Below, in pieces: positions 29,405-62,489 of a DNA stretch of 64,000 nt; positions within the stretch are counted from its first letter, which is position 1, and every line of letters starts with the position of its first letter. The notes below the pieces were generated by a model, which saw only the letters and a program-made list of their open reading frames with translations, ran no database searches and had not been told where the DNA came from. Position numbers and translations under genes: made by a program. The stretch comes from an uncultured Cohaesibacter sp. (GTDB taxonomy: Bacteria > Pseudomonadota > Alphaproteobacteria > Rhizobiales > Cohaesibacteraceae), in the NCBI RefSeq assembly GCF_963666525.1, contig NZ_OY762905.1, positions 3,265,501 to 3,329,500 of the forward strand, written 5' to 3'.

Positions 29405-29501
29405 GGAAGGTTGGCAATGGACGTTCCCCTCGCCAACCGGGTCAGGTCCGGAAGGAAGCAGCCCTAACGAGTTACAGAGCGGGTCATCTGTTCAGCCTTC
29501 C
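29405..29501 (+). ncRNA. ffs: signal recognition particle RNA, small bacterial type
   Basis: About 97 bases. The invariant SRP tip is present as GTCAGGTCCGGAAGGAAGCA with the paired GCCCTAAC side. The ends GGAAGG (29405-29410) and CCTTCC (29496-29501) close the long hairpin. It lies immediately upstream of dnaX, its usual place in alphaproteobacteria. The RNA binds Ffh to target membrane proteins. Confidence 0.95.
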
Positions 29502-29723
29502 ACTTATCCCCCCTCTTCCGCCGAAATGATCAGCCAGTCGGACCATAGACCGGATGGAGAATGCTGTCCAACGGACCATTTCGCATTGCTCCCGTGCAAT
29601 TGGGGTGAGCGCTGCTGCTTTCAACAACAATTGACTTTCCGTCGACAAGATGGGTGACGCAGCGCGCGTTCCTCTGCTATGGATAGCCATACTCTGTTTT
29701 GCAAGAAGGCTCGGGATTCCCTA

Positions 29724-56496: not shown

Positions 56497-57432
56497 ATGA
56501 TTTCACAGACCCTCGTGGCATTCGGGCTGCTGATCACCCCGACCTTTGCCGCCTCCTTTGGTCCGCTGGTTTCCCCCGAGCAGCTCAATGCCGCAGTGGG
56601 CGATGCTGCGCCCTTCATCATCGACATCCGCGCGACCGACAAGGAAGGAGCGAGCCTGTTTGAAAAAGGCCATATCGCCGGTTCGGTCAATGCGCCTTAC
56701 GGGTTGTTTCGCGGTCCTAAGGAAAATCCGGGCCAGCTGGTAACCGAAGACCATCTGGAAAAGGTGCTCGGGGATATTGGCGCAGACAAGAACCGTGCCA
56801 CGGTCGTCGCCTATCAGGGTGCAGATATTTCCGATTTTGGCGCTGCTGCCCGTGTCTACTGGACCCTGAAGACGGCAGGGTTTACCGACATCTCCATCCT
56901 CAATGGCGGTATCGACACCTGGACACAGCAGGGCCTGCCGCTTGAAACCGGTGTGGTTGTCCTCAAACCGACCTCTGTCGATATCAGCTTTTCCGATCGG
57001 TGGCTGGCCAACCGGGACGAAATTCTTAAGATCGTCGGTGGCGAAGAGAAGGCCCGCCTTGTCGATGCCCGTCCGGAAGAATTCTGGAAAGGCGAGAAAA
57101 AACACCCTGCCGCCGCCCGTCCCGGCACCCTGCCGCAGTCCGAATATTTCGTGCATTCCAGCTGGTTCGATAACAAGCCGGTGATCGCCGACGCTGCCAA
57201 GGCCAAGGAAATCGCCGCCAAGGCCGGATTCAAGAATGGCGAAGAGCTGGTCAGCTTCTGCAACACAGGGCACTGGGCCGCGACCAACTGGTTCGCCCTC
57301 TCTGAGCTGGCAGGTCTGGGCAATGTGAAGCTCTATCCTGAATCGATGGTTGGCTATTCAAACGCAGGCCATGAGCTGGCCAACACGCCAGGCCTCTTCA
57401 AGACCCTCATCAAACAGGTAACCGGTGGCTGA
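56497..57432 (+). CDS. exported two-domain rhodanese sulfurtransferase
   Basis: 311 residues. The N-terminus (MISQTLVAFGLLITPTFAAS) looks like a signal peptide, although without the usual basic residues. Two rhodanese domains follow; the first is inactive (AYQGAD at the loop), and the second carries the catalytic Cys255 in SFCNTGHWA. It would move sulfane sulfur in the periplasm. The GGAG site is 14 bases from the ATG, longer than usual. Its last 8 bases overlap the YeeE-type transporter gene, so the two are coupled. Confidence 0.88.
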   Translation: MISQTLVAFGLLITPTFAASFGPLVSPEQLNAAVGDAAPFIIDIRATDKEGASLFEKGHIAGSVNAPYGLFRGPKENPGQLVTEDHLEKVLGDIGADKNRATVVAYQGADISDFGAAARVYWTLKTAGFTDISILNGGIDTWTQQGLPLETGVVVLKPTSVDISFSDRWLANRDEILKIVGGEEKARLVDARPEEFWKGEKKHPAAARPGTLPQSEYFVHSSWFDNKPVIADAAKAKEIAAKAGFKNGEELVSFCNTGHWAATNWFALSELAGLGNVKLYPESMVGYSNAGHELANTPGLFKTLIKQVTGG

Positions 57433-58564
57433 TTCCGTGACTGACATCTCGACAACGCTGGAGGCCCCTGCAAAGGGGTCTCGTCTGTTTGCAAGGGCTG
57501 GCCTCATTGGTCTGACCCTTGTTGCCATTCTGGCCCTCATGGCAGCGGCGGGTGTGCGCTATGGCCTGCTACTGGCCATCGGCGTCGGTTTCGGTCTGAC
57601 GTTGGAAGGCTTGCGCTTCGGCTTCGCCGGTCCGTGGCGGGCGATGATCCTGCGGCGCGAGCCTGCCGGGCTGATCGCTCAGCTTCTGGCCATCGGGCTC
57701 GTTGCCATCGTCGCCTTTCCGCTGTTGTCCGGCGACCATCCAGAACTGATTGGCGCCCATGCCGCCGTTGGCTGGTCCATGGTCGGTGGTGCATTCGTGT
57801 TCGGTGCTGCCATGCAGCTTTTGCTCGGCTGCGGTTCGGGCACGTTGGTCAATGCCGGATCTGGCAATCCGGTCAGCGTGTTAGCCTTGCCCTTCTTTGT
57901 CGTCGGAGCCTTTGCCGGGTCCTATCACCTTCTATGGTGGACGGATCTGGGGCATCTGCCGCTGGTGGTGCTGGAAGGGAGCCGTGGCCTGGTGATCACC
58001 CTGCTGGGGCTGCTGATCGTCGGACTTGGTGCGCTTTCTCTTGCACCACGACAGGCCCGTTTTGTGCCGCGCCGTCTGCTGGTTGCTGCCGTACTGCTGG
58101 CTGCGCTGGCGATAGCCAATTTCGCGGTTGCCGGTCAGCCTTGGGGCGTGGTCTATGGCCTTGGCCTGTGGGCTGCCAAAGGGGCGTCGGCATTGGGAGC
58201 GGATCTGACGGCATCGTCCTACTGGGCAAGCCCGGTGCATCAGGAACGACTGGCCGCCAGTCTGCTCACCGACTACACGTCTCTCACCAATCTCGGCATC
58301 ATTCTCGGGGCCTTCATTGTTGCCGTCTGGCGGTCTGGCCTCAGTACAAGGCTGCCCTCGCTGCCCGCAAGGGCGTGGCTGGCCACTGTCATTGCCGGTT
58401 TCCTGCTTGGCTATTCCTCGCGTCTGGCGCTCGGCTGCAATGTCGGGGCCTTCTTTTCGGGGATTTCCACCGGCAGCCTGCATGGCTGGGTATGGTTTGT
58501 TGCGGCTTTTGCCGGGGCGTGGGTGGGCATACGCCTGCGCAAGCCACTGGGATTGGAGGGATAG
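57425..58564 (+). CDS. YeeE/YedE family sulfur-compound transporter
   Basis: 379 residues with about ten membrane segments. Two glycine-cysteine motifs typical of this family are present: LLLGCGSGTLVNAG (C136) and LALGCNVGAFFSGIS (about C338). In the relative TsuA such cysteines pass thiosulfate across the membrane. The GTG at 57425 overlaps the rhodanese stop; a second GTG at 57437 is possible. Coupling to a periplasmic rhodanese supports a role in sulfur uptake. Confidence 0.88.
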   Translation: MADSVTDISTTLEAPAKGSRLFARAGLIGLTLVAILALMAAAGVRYGLLLAIGVGFGLTLEGLRFGFAGPWRAMILRREPAGLIAQLLAIGLVAIVAFPLLSGDHPELIGAHAAVGWSMVGGAFVFGAAMQLLLGCGSGTLVNAGSGNPVSVLALPFFVVGAFAGSYHLLWWTDLGHLPLVVLEGSRGLVITLLGLLIVGLGALSLAPRQARFVPRRLLVAAVLLAALAIANFAVAGQPWGVVYGLGLWAAKGASALGADLTASSYWASPVHQERLAASLLTDYTSLTNLGIILGAFIVAVWRSGLSTRLPSLPARAWLATVIAGFLLGYSSRLALGCNVGAFFSGISTGSLHGWVWFVAAFAGAWVGIRLRKPLGLEG

Positions 58565-59449: not shown

Positions 59450-60646
59450 TCAGAGCGTCGCCAGAGCCTGCTCGAAGTCGTCCCACAGGTCCTCGATATC
59501 CTCAAGACCAACAGACAGACGCAGCGTGCCCTGACCGATACCGGCGGCTGCCAGCTGGTCGTCGTTGAGCCGCTGATGGGTGGTCGTGGCCGGATGGGTG
59601 ATCAGGCTCTTGGCGTCACCCAGATTGTTGGAGATCTTGATGACCTTGAGAGCATTTTCCAGCTCGAAGGCCTTCTGCTTGCCACCGGCCACATTGAGCG
59701 CCACCATGGTCGAGCCACCACGCATCTGCTTCTTGCAGACATCGGCCTGCGGGTGGTCATCACGACCAGGATAGAAGATCCTGTCGATGGCCTTGTGCTC
59801 GGCCAGACGGTCGGCGAGGATAGCGGCACTGCGGGTCTGTTCCTTGACGCGTAACGGGAAGGTCTCCAGTCCCTTGAGCATGATCCACGCATTGAACGGC
59901 GACAGCGATGGACCGGTGTGACGATGGATGTCCTTGAATTCCTCTTCGAGGAACTGCTCGGTCGACAACACGACCCCGCCCAGGCAGCGACCCTGACCAT
60001 CGATATGCTTGGTGGCCGAATAGATCACCACGTCGGCTCCGAGGGCCAGCGGACTCTGCCACATGGCAGTCGCGAAGACGTTGTCGACGACCAGCTTGGC
60101 TCCCGCTTCATGGGCAATCTCGGCCACACCGGCAATGTCGATCACCGACAATACGGGGTTGGTCGGGCTTTCGAGGAAACAGGCACGGGTGTTCGGGCGC
60201 ATCGCCGCCTTCCATTCCTCAAGATTGGTGCCATCCACCAGCGTGCATTCGACACCAAAGCGGGGCAGCAGCTCCGAGACGATATAGAGGCAGGAGCCGA
60301 ACAGGGCGCTTGCGGCAACCACATGGTCGCCAGCCCGGACGCATGAAAGCATTGCAGAGGAAACGGCCGCCATGCCGGACGCCGTACCACGCGCGCCTTC
60401 AGCACCTTCCAGCAGCGCCATACGGCTTTCGAACATGGAAACAGTGGGGTTGGCATACCGCGAGTAGACATAGCCCGGCTCTTCGCCGTTGAAGCGGGCT
60501 TCCTGTGCCTCGGCGCTGTCATAGACATACCCCTGCGTCATGAACAGTGCTTCAGAGGTTTCCCCCCACTGTGAACGCATCACGCCGCCATGCACCATCT
60601 GGGTAGCGGGGCGGTAAACGGTTTCGGGTTTCTTGGTCTCAGACAT
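59450..60646 (-). CDS. metZ: O-succinylhomoserine sulfhydrylase
   Basis: 398 residues of the Cys/Met-metabolism PLP family. The PLP lysine is K213 in YSATKHIDGQGR, and GTASGMAAVSSAM and YSRYANPTVSMFE are typical of MetZ. It makes homocysteine from O-succinylhomoserine and sulfide. The start MSETKKPETVYRPAT is usual, with an AGGA site 9 bases upstream. A SAM-II riboswitch, leader ORF and terminator lie 95-215 bases upstream, so SAM is expected to repress it. Confidence 0.95.
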   Translation of the reverse strand: MSETKKPETVYRPATQMVHGGVMRSQWGETSEALFMTQGYVYDSAEAQEARFNGEEPGYVYSRYANPTVSMFESRMALLEGAEGARGTASGMAAVSSAMLSCVRAGDHVVAASALFGSCLYIVSELLPRFGVECTLVDGTNLEEWKAAMRPNTRACFLESPTNPVLSVIDIAGVAEIAHEAGAKLVVDNVFATAMWQSPLALGADVVIYSATKHIDGQGRCLGGVVLSTEQFLEEEFKDIHRHTGPSLSPFNAWIMLKGLETFPLRVKEQTRSAAILADRLAEHKAIDRIFYPGRDDHPQADVCKKQMRGGSTMVALNVAGGKQKAFELENALKVIKISNNLGDAKSLITHPATTTHQRLNDDQLAAAGIGQGTLRLSVGLEDIEDLWDDFEQALATL

Positions 60647-60742: not shown

Positions 60743-60779
60743 AAAATAAAACCCGGCGACACCTTTCAGTATGGCCGGG
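60743..60779 (-). terminator. attenuator terminator in the metZ leader
   Basis: On the minus strand CCCGGC (60774-60779) pairs with GCCGGG (60752-60757) and is followed by TTTTATTTT. It lies just after the SAM-II aptamer and about 100 bases before metZ. Its first arm is inside the 9-codon leader frame, so translation would block it. A second small hairpin CGCGCC/GGCGCG lies at about 60683-60697. Confidence 0.8.
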
Positions 60780-60795
60780 ACAGACAGTTTTTCAT
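60766..60795 (-). CDS. 9-codon leader ORF between SAM-II aptamer and terminator
   Basis: The frame reads MKNCLSRPY then TGA. Its ATG (60793-60795) directly follows the 3' edge of the SAM-II aptamer. AAGG (60802-60805), part of the aptamer's 3' strand, sits 6 bases before it as a ribosome-binding site. Codons 6-7 form the first arm of the downstream terminator. The peptide is too short for any homology call; expression is inferred from layout. Confidence 0.45.
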   Translation of the reverse strand: MKNCLSRPY

Positions 60796-60860
60796 CCCCG
60801 ACCTTTTAGCAACTTTCTTTTACGTGGCGGCAAGCCGGCCGGCTCAAATGACCACAAGTG
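60796..60860 (-). ncRNA. SAM-II riboswitch aptamer
   Basis: On the minus strand the consensus elements appear in order: GTGG (60852-60855) closing with CCAC (60824-60827), the loop CATTTGAGCC, the GGCCGGCTTG region, the A-rich ACGTAAAAGAAAG and the GCTAAAAGG that forms the pseudoknot. This is the classic alphaproteobacterial SAM-II that precedes met genes. SAM binding folds the pseudoknot and hides the ribosome-binding region at its 3' edge. Confidence 0.93.
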
Positions 60861-60866
60861 CGACAT

Positions 60867-60895
60867 TATGTACGCTCAAAGGACGGGTGTGTCAA
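60867..60895 (-). promoter_or_regulatory. sigma70-type promoter of the metZ leader
   Basis: On the minus strand TTGACA (60890-60895) and TACATA (60867-60872) are separated by exactly 17 bases. Transcription would start near 60860, the first base of the SAM-II aptamer. Confidence 0.8.
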
Positions 60896-60934: not shown

Positions 60935-61609
60935 CTAGGAGGCGGAGTTGGCGCAATAGGAATGATATGTCTTGATCATTTGGCCCAGCTCGCGAGTGTC
61001 GCCGCTGAGGACAAAGGTGCCCAGCTTGCCCGGCAAGTGGCGCACTTTCTGGTTGGAGGAGCAGCTCTGCGTCATGTCGTAACTGCCCATCTTGTCAAAG
61101 CCGAACTGCTTGATGATGCGCTGTTCGGCGCTTGCTGCGAACTCGTTCCATGCCGCGCCACGCAGCCCGTGCTTTTCGCTCACATAGGTCCAGATGGCCT
61201 GTTTGGCACTCTTCACCTTCTGTTCCATATCCGGTTGGAAGTCGAATTTCAGAAGGCTGTTGCGTGAAGCCTTGCTGGCGTCGAGGCTGGAAAAGGAGAC
61301 GCCGGACGTCTCGCGAATATCCAGCAGGGTTTCCTGAATGCGGATGTCATTGGCGGCGGTGCAGGTTTGCGGCTTTTCATACCGGCTGATGATCTTGCAG
61401 CCGGAGACGCTGATCTGACTGCCATAGACCTTGTGGTCGAGCGATCGCGACAGGGTCTTCTGGATCGTGCTTTCCATCTGCTGAACCTGCTCGGCCGAAA
61501 ACAGTGGCTTGGTTCGGGCAAAGCTTTTGGTTTGCCAGAAGACCATCATGGTCAGCGCGGGAATGATCGCCAGAAATGCGGCGATTGTAACAATGACTTT
61601 GTTTTTCAT
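60935..61609 (-). CDS. membrane-anchored protein of unknown function, paralogue of the next gene
   Basis: 224 residues. One N-terminal membrane segment or signal (VIVTIAAFLAIIPALTMMVF) precedes an exported domain with four cysteines at 71, 83, 183 and 219. The upstream gene has the same length and cysteines at 73, 85, 185 and 221, so spacings 12, 100 and 36 are identical. Shared words are CKI, SAEQ, CSS, a HLP-KLGT-like run and K-YH-x-x-C. I chose the ATG at 61609; a TTG at 61630 is possible. No family is recognised. Confidence 0.7.
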   Translation of the reverse strand: MKNKVIVTIAAFLAIIPALTMMVFWQTKSFARTKPLFSAEQVQQMESTIQKTLSRSLDHKVYGSQISVSGCKIISRYEKPQTCTAANDIRIQETLLDIRETSGVSFSSLDASKASRNSLLKFDFQPDMEQKVKSAKQAIWTYVSEKHGLRGAAWNEFAASAEQRIIKQFGFDKMGSYDMTQSCSSNQKVRHLPGKLGTFVLSGDTRELGQMIKTYHSYCANSAS

Positions 61610-61670
61610 CGGATCAAATATCAGTTTCAATTATGATGCGTTTGCTTTGGTGTTTTTATTTTAGTTACAA

Positions 61671-61814: not shown

Positions 61815-62489
61815 TCAGCCATCAATGCAGTTGGCATGATAGGACTTGAGGCTGTAGGCGGCGTTCCGGTCAACGGTGGAAAGGCTGATGGTGCCGAGAG
61901 TCTTGGGCAGGTGATATTGTTGCAGTCTGCTGGAGCAATTCTGTGTCTTGGCATAGCTCTGCATGTCGGTCAGACCCGCTTCTGACACGGCGTTCTGCTC
62001 GGCGGAATGGGTTTCCTGCGCCCACATCGAGCCGGTATAGCCGGTGTTGTACCGGTTGTAGCGATTGAACAGGGTCTTGGCGCGATCGAACCGCTTCTGC
62101 ACGTTTTCCTTGAATTCGAACTGGATTGAGCCGGTTGCACCGGTCCCGTTGCGGGAATTCTCGAAAACCCGAACCTGCTGAACATCCTTGAGATCGATCT
62201 GGAACTCGCTGTAGCGTGCCGTTGGTGAGCTGGCGCAATCCCCCGCGCGGTTCAACTGATAGGTGATCTTGCAGCTGTTCACTTCCACCTTGTCGGTGAA
62301 GGGGTCGAAATAGGCCATGTTCGATTTGAGAAAAGAGGCAATTTTTGTCTCTGCCTGCCTGATTTCGCTGGAATTCAGGCGCGTACCATGAATCTGGTTG
62401 GAGTTCGCTGGCGTTTCATACGTCAGAATGATACCCGCAATGAAGCAAGCCGATATGATACAAACCGCTATAAGCTTTTTCATTTGCAC
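61815..62489 (-). CDS. exported protein of unknown function, paralogue of the downstream gene
   Basis: 224 residues. An N-terminal hydrophobic segment (LIAVCIISACFIAGIILTY) acts as anchor or signal. The exported part has cysteines at 73, 85, 185 and 221, in register with the neighbouring paralogue. Conserved runs are NSCKITYQ, SAEQNAV, QNCSS, HLPKTLGT and KSYHANC. Two disulfides (12-residue spacing in the N half, 36 in the C half) are plausible. Sequence identity to the paralogue looks low to moderate, so the duplication is not recent. The role is unknown. Confidence 0.7.
   Translation of the reverse strand: MQMKKLIAVCIISACFIAGIILTYETPANSNQIHGTRLNSSEIRQAETKIASFLKSNMAYFDPFTDKVEVNSCKITYQLNRAGDCASSPTARYSEFQIDLKDVQQVRVFENSRNGTGATGSIQFEFKENVQKRFDRAKTLFNRYNRYNTGYTGSMWAQETHSAEQNAVSEAGLTDMQSYAKTQNCSSRLQQYHLPKTLGTISLSTVDRNAAYSLKSYHANCIDG

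Follow-up and report, generated by a model that had tools for sequence, protein, structure and literature searches.

The window analyzed here, a stretch of 64,000 nucleotides from the genome of an uncultured Cohaesibacter sp. (contig NZ_OY762905.1), carries metZ on its minus strand (59450–60646). The gene encodes an O-succinylhomoserine sulfhydrylase (NF005696, 687.3 bits, cut-off 675), has an 82–99% match in five Cohaesibacter records and starts with an ATG at 60646 that has its own SD-like AGGA. When the minus strand is read from 60895 to 60646, promoter-like hexamers are followed by a SAM-II aptamer, an ATG with a short reading frame, a hairpin with a U-tract and finally metZ itself. A first-pass annotation made from the sequence alone placed a sigma-70-like promoter at TTGACA (60895–60890) and TACATA (60872–60867). 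Both hexamers and the 17-base spacer are present, but the choice of the -10 element is less certain; a promoter scan favored TTGACA-19-CATAAT, and as this CATAAT, which ends at 60865, overlaps TACATA, two -10 candidates remain. By the same type of scan TTGAC(A/G) was found 84–90 bases 5' of GCUAAA, with spacers of 17 to 19 bases, in 16 of the 17 Cohaesibacter loci, the exception (L002) having a poor pair elsewhere. A simple consensus scan of the window listed neither the metZ promoter nor the hairpin of the metZ leader, because TACATA is without the required final T and because the loop limit of the scan was 8.

The surroundings of metZ hold a few further features. Just upstream of the metZ promoter are two paralogues of 231 and 224 aa (60935–61630 and 61815–62489, both on the minus strand), which are 26% identical over 184 positions (E 6e-23) and have no Pfam or NCBIfam match. 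Relatives of these proteins were found in 11 of the 20 genomes of the family set, all within the genus, and two adjacent copies occur in nine of the 11, namely in all nine members of the clade to which the window belongs. A YedE/TsuA-like sulphur transporter (57425–58564, plus strand, PF04143) is located two genes from metZ, and the window also contains a bacterial small SRP RNA (29406–29503, plus strand, RF00169, 52.7 bits).

The aptamer (60865–60786, minus strand) matches RF00521 over the full length of the model (positions 1–79) with 61.3 bits in cmscan, well above the gathering threshold of 36 (E 2.5e-11), in agreement with the first-pass annotation; at E 0.001 the genome has no second match. 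It is positioned 5' of a gene of the methionine/SAM pathway, and the complementarity needed for the P2 pseudoknot is present (CCGGCC with GGUCGG); relatives have CCGACC or CCGGUC with strands that can pair. The Cohaesibacter metZ aptamer is predicted to bind SAM. Sequence, aptamer model, folding and the count of pairs all identify the 3' strand of P2, GGUCGGGG (60803–60796), also as the 5' strand of an antiterminator. The start of this strand overlaps the SD-like AAGG at 60805–60802. The AGG beside the leader frame belongs to the SAM-II consensus (GCUAAAgAGGCCggGg) and is therefore no argument for a leader ORF, so that only the ATG is informative. Of the genomes of the genus, 17 of 18 contain a match to RF00521, as do 19 of 20 genomes of the family set (genus included), 227 of 297 sampled from the order and 141 of 289 sampled from the class. 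For the comparisons below 159 loci were used, comprising all 19 of the genus and family and 140 from the order and class among the matches listed. By tblastn metZ was on the same strand as the aptamer in 132 of the 159; the start offset of metZ is implausible in L056 and L154, and the gene is therefore badly placed there.

Upstream of metZ lies the intrinsic terminator noted in the first-pass annotation (60779–60743, minus strand), which is predicted by folding to form with -16.5 kcal/mol. It consists of CCCGGC (60779–60774), an inner stem, GCCGGG (60757–60752) and then UUUUAUUUU, with TTTTATTTT at 60751–60743 as the U-tract. The key feature of the locus is the antiterminator, which had not been named earlier: the P2 3' strand GGUCGGG (60803–60797) is complementary at 7/7 positions to CCCGGCC (60779–60773), the CCCGGC of which is the 5' arm of the terminator. 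As the 3' strand of the pseudoknot can pair directly with the terminator arm, switching is explained without a ribosome. For the platform alone the energy was -19.0 when folded freely, with the terminator formed, and -17.2 when the antiterminator was enforced, and two states this close in energy fit what a switch needs. A single locus proves little in this respect, since complementarity of at least seven pairs is not rare in the background where CCCGG arms are common. Of 26 unrelated terminator-like hairpins, taken from the window and from elsewhere in the genus and family loci, nine could form at least 7 contiguous pairs with the same strand, although the window was unmasked for this set, so that the nine probably include the hairpin of metZ itself.

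The pairing of the GGUCGGG/CCCGGCC type is conserved at 7/7 positions in all 17 Cohaesibacter loci, where the linkers vary in sequence and are between 10 and 19 nt long. Within the genus no two-sided changes were found in the antiterminator pairs and the pair counts do not exceed those of shuffles; the lack of a covariation signal in the pair counts of the genus together with L018, which is aligned there with a shift of one base, is explained by too little change. In the wider set a hairpin with a U-tract was found by rule in 144 of 159 loci; in 133 of these the P2 strand forms five or more pairs with the terminator arm. The rule accepts hairpins far downstream, probably inside the gene, in at least five of the 144 (L019, L052, L101, L119, and L159), and it misses others, as L018, L042, L106, and L108 among the 15 negatives have a hairpin and U-run by eye. 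When distinct pieces from P2 to the arm of at most 60 nt were folded (longer pieces being excluded), 119 of 128 folded better than with the first 11 bases shuffled (mean z -1.75) and 114 of 128 better than with the remainder shuffled. Changes in the two strands also match. The arm has a U opposite P2 position 2 in 6 of 6 loci with A at that position vs. 38 of 127 with G (order and class), and an A in the arm at the partner of P2 position 3 faces U in all 12 cases and is found in 0 of 72 loci with C there. Counted on distinct combinations this gives p = 0.0002 (Fisher), uncorrected for relatedness and with five distinct combinations, in which U faces U or C as a mismatch (U-U or U-C), falling outside the 2 × 2 table. 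In a test with permuted pairs, for which 26 of the 159 loci were dropped (15 without a hairpin by the rule, 11 with unclear register), the own pairs of the 133 usable rows were better, and 8 of 2000 permutations reached the observed value; the effect was weak when each of the 60 distinct combinations of P2 and arm was counted once (166 of 2000).

Some SAM-II loci have a different layout. In L019, from the same family, the aptamer is intact and metZ is located ~100 nt downstream with no usual terminator nearby, and the rule gave a weak hairpin 142 nt on; GGGG could pair with CCCC instead, and the expression platform may differ. In ten loci (L043, L050, L054, L055, L057, L060, L094, L095, L131, and L132) the aptamer precedes another gene family, a putative metA. 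At these ten loci the hairpin rule found none in five and only weak hairpins in L050 and L054.

It is very likely that the metZ leader of Cohaesibacter is a transcriptional SAM-II riboswitch with a direct antiterminator, for which no ribosome is needed. Transcription would presumably start at the promoter-like sequence, and the events would then be ordered as follows. At low SAM, GGUCGGG (60803–60797) would be free of the pseudoknot and pair with CCCGGCC (60779–60773), so that the terminator's first arm is taken up in the antiterminator and the polymerase may proceed into metZ. With SAM bound, GGUCGGG would be locked in the P2 pseudoknot, CCCGGC would be free for GCCGGG, and transcription would end at the U-tract near 60743, resulting in a small RNA of ~115 nt. 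The leader AUG presumably plays no essential part in this. A transcriptional OFF switch for metZ, built from aptamer and terminator, had been proposed in the first-pass annotation and is retained here; the translated leader ORF that was to link the two is not, as the antiterminator is found in 17/17 genus loci, the ATG in 13/17 and the 9-codon frame in 7/17.

This reading is in line with published descriptions of SAM-II switches. Many SAM-II representatives are described as having a putative terminator that lies between P2 and the gene (PMC1273637), and SAM-II switches with terminators are described as common in alpha-proteobacteria. The metZ SAM-II of Sinorhizobium meliloti was predicted to terminate upon SAM binding, and with SAM the RZ sRNA (~100 nt) goes up and metZ mRNA goes down (PMC9373788). 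This system has the aptamer class, the gene, the terminator between them and a short terminated RNA (predicted here) in common with Cohaesibacter. The leader start codon after P2 in Cohaesibacter is a possible difference from S. meliloti as described (PMC9373788). Similarly, the account of the metZ SAM-II of G. oxydans, likened by description, concerns the same gene, predicts a terminator and an antiterminator, and reports coverage of the 5' UTR 20-fold over the ORF, i.e., RNA-seq that fits termination (PMC5756330). The starting picture of the first-pass annotation was a switch that occludes the RBS, as SAM-II is presented in PMC10907184. In a literature search of mostly partial main texts no proposal was found that a leader frame connects a SAM-II aptamer with a terminator; metZ is mentioned 0 times in the available text of a Ribo-seq study (PMC10117765), and SAM-II occurs only in the reference list of PMC3723493.

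The leader frame itself deserves closer consideration. An ATG (60795–60793), placed 6 nt from the SD-like AAGG, opens, as previously described, a frame of nine codons, MKNCLSRPY followed by TGA (60795–60766, minus strand), and not metZ, which starts 149 bases later (given as about 150). CCCGGC is indeed contained in the frame, although it spans codons 6 to 8 and not 6–7. Nine codons is an ordinary length for a frame opened by a given ATG, as 30% of shuffles of the window leader gave a frame as short or shorter. The 9-codon form was found in 7 of 17 genus loci (L001, L011, and L013–L017), and these frames differ at codons 2 to 5, mostly with amino-acid change; in L010 the ATG is directly followed by TGA and a GTG two bases on opens the 8-codon VNIRLSRP, making 8/17 if counted. 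Elsewhere the frame has 51 codons in L012 and 22–29 codons, running through the terminator, in L004, L006, L008, and L009. Its length thus varies between 1 and 51 codons, and the leader ORF is not conserved among close relatives. The frame is probably non-functional or at most accessory, and a leader ORF as the conserved main mechanism is rejected, on the genus and the wider loci, in view of the loss of the ATG and the variability of the frame.

The role first assigned to this frame was that of a relay, in which a ribosome translating the nine codons in the absence of SAM covers the terminator arm, whereas SAM would keep the leader untranslated and so allow the terminator to fold. The spacing of AAGG and ATG suits such a relay, and the frame from the ATG does cover the terminator arm in 12 of 17 genus loci, with the GTG frame of L010 in addition. 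The start codon is also more frequent than expected. An ATG at SD spacing (4–11 nt from the GG of the aptamer) is present in 13 of 17 genus loci vs. 2.6 ± 1.4 in shuffles and, uncorrected for relatedness, in 16 of 142 loci outside the genus vs. 9.2 ± 2.7; any start codon at this spacing occurs in 66 of the 142 vs. 41.9 ± 5.1, again uncorrected for relatedness and mostly as GTG (37 loci), which may be attributed to the G-rich (GGGG) end of P2. This excess argues against a purely accidental reading and, with the 13 of 17 genus loci, makes it conceivable that the start codon has a secondary role. The conservation of the ATG among close relatives is on the other hand incomplete, as L002, L003, L005, and L007 have none at SD spacing; all four keep aptamer, antiterminator and terminator, with antiterminator energies (-12.3 to -15.4 kcal/mol) similar to those of ATG-bearing loci (-10.5 to -16.5 kcal/mol). 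Mapped onto a metZ tree of the 19 loci, the SD-spaced ATG requires four or more changes, two of which are imposed by branches with good support, and clustering of the label is not clear (83 of 500 shuffles gave a value this low). All nine loci of the window's clade share an unchanged GATG, for which the pairing of GAU with GUC inside the antiterminator, seen in folds of L013 to L016, is another possible reason. The GG of the SD is moreover paired in the antiterminator, which puts the antiterminator and ribosome-loading states in competition, and loading of a ribosome would be required within ~50 nt of transcription. Attenuators of the trpL type are mediated by ribosomes on a short frame that overlaps an intrinsic terminator. 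The overlap is shared with the Cohaesibacter leader (for ribosome-mediated attenuators see PMC12218461), but this leader has no regulatory codons (no Met in MKNCLSRPY beyond the start) and an unconserved frame, and its simple translation would prevent, not allow, termination. In the same source the metZ mRNA level is unchanged under tetracycline, which is weakly against dependence on leader translation and is confounded by mRNA stabilization (PMC12218461). The leader frame is probably not needed for SAM control of metZ, and the relay, possible but unnecessary and poorly conserved, is highly improbable.

Another role for SD and AUG within the aptamer would be to load ribosomes for metZ, either by hand-over from the leader frame or by an SD acting at a distance. 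The precedent is the metA SAM-II of S. meliloti, in which the SD of the riboswitch is needed for translation 74 nt downstream (PMC9373788). As described there, it resembles the present locus in having an SD in the aptamer, AUG1, a terminator and then the gene; AUG1 is however in frame with metA, AUG2 being used, while the frame in the window ends 119 nt before metZ. Frames that stop 4–23 nt short of the metZ ATG or run into it (L012, 51 codons) are found in L004, L006, L008, L009, and L012, i.e., in 5 of 13 loci vs. 1.5 expected in shuffles, and the first four of these are all the genus loci with an SD-spaced ATG outside the window's clade. As they are partly close relatives the excess rests on few independent events, and translational coupling to metZ is a possibility in these species. 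In the window and seven of its eight clade mates the frame ends 114–119 nt before metZ (in L010 119 nt from the GTG frame and 142 from the ATG), and metZ has its own SD-like sequence. Ribosome loading for metZ is thus very unlikely as the explanation of the locus. It is also extremely improbable that the terminator is a constitutive attenuator, terminating at a fixed rate while SAM acts through mRNA stability alone or not at all. PMC9373788 does report that SAM is linked to stabilized metZ mRNA and to reduced promoter activity, and describes a metA terminator that is not predicted to respond to SAM; a terminator arm complementary to the SAM-controlled strand in 17/17 loci is however not what such an attenuator calls for. 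It is conceivable, although unlikely, that SD and AUG are kept in Cohaesibacter as a real ribosome-loading site that adds a translation-dependent layer, by covering the arm or by hand-over to metZ, to the transcriptional switch.

The transcriptional switch with a direct antiterminator is in itself of an ordinary and already described kind, here found in an additional genus, Cohaesibacter. The comparison suggests that the direct antiterminator is a common feature of SAM-II terminator platforms, while start codons nearby come and go. If the leader AUG does matter, the locus would be a rare case in which a single aptamer strand is used for pseudoknot, antiterminator and ribosome loading together.
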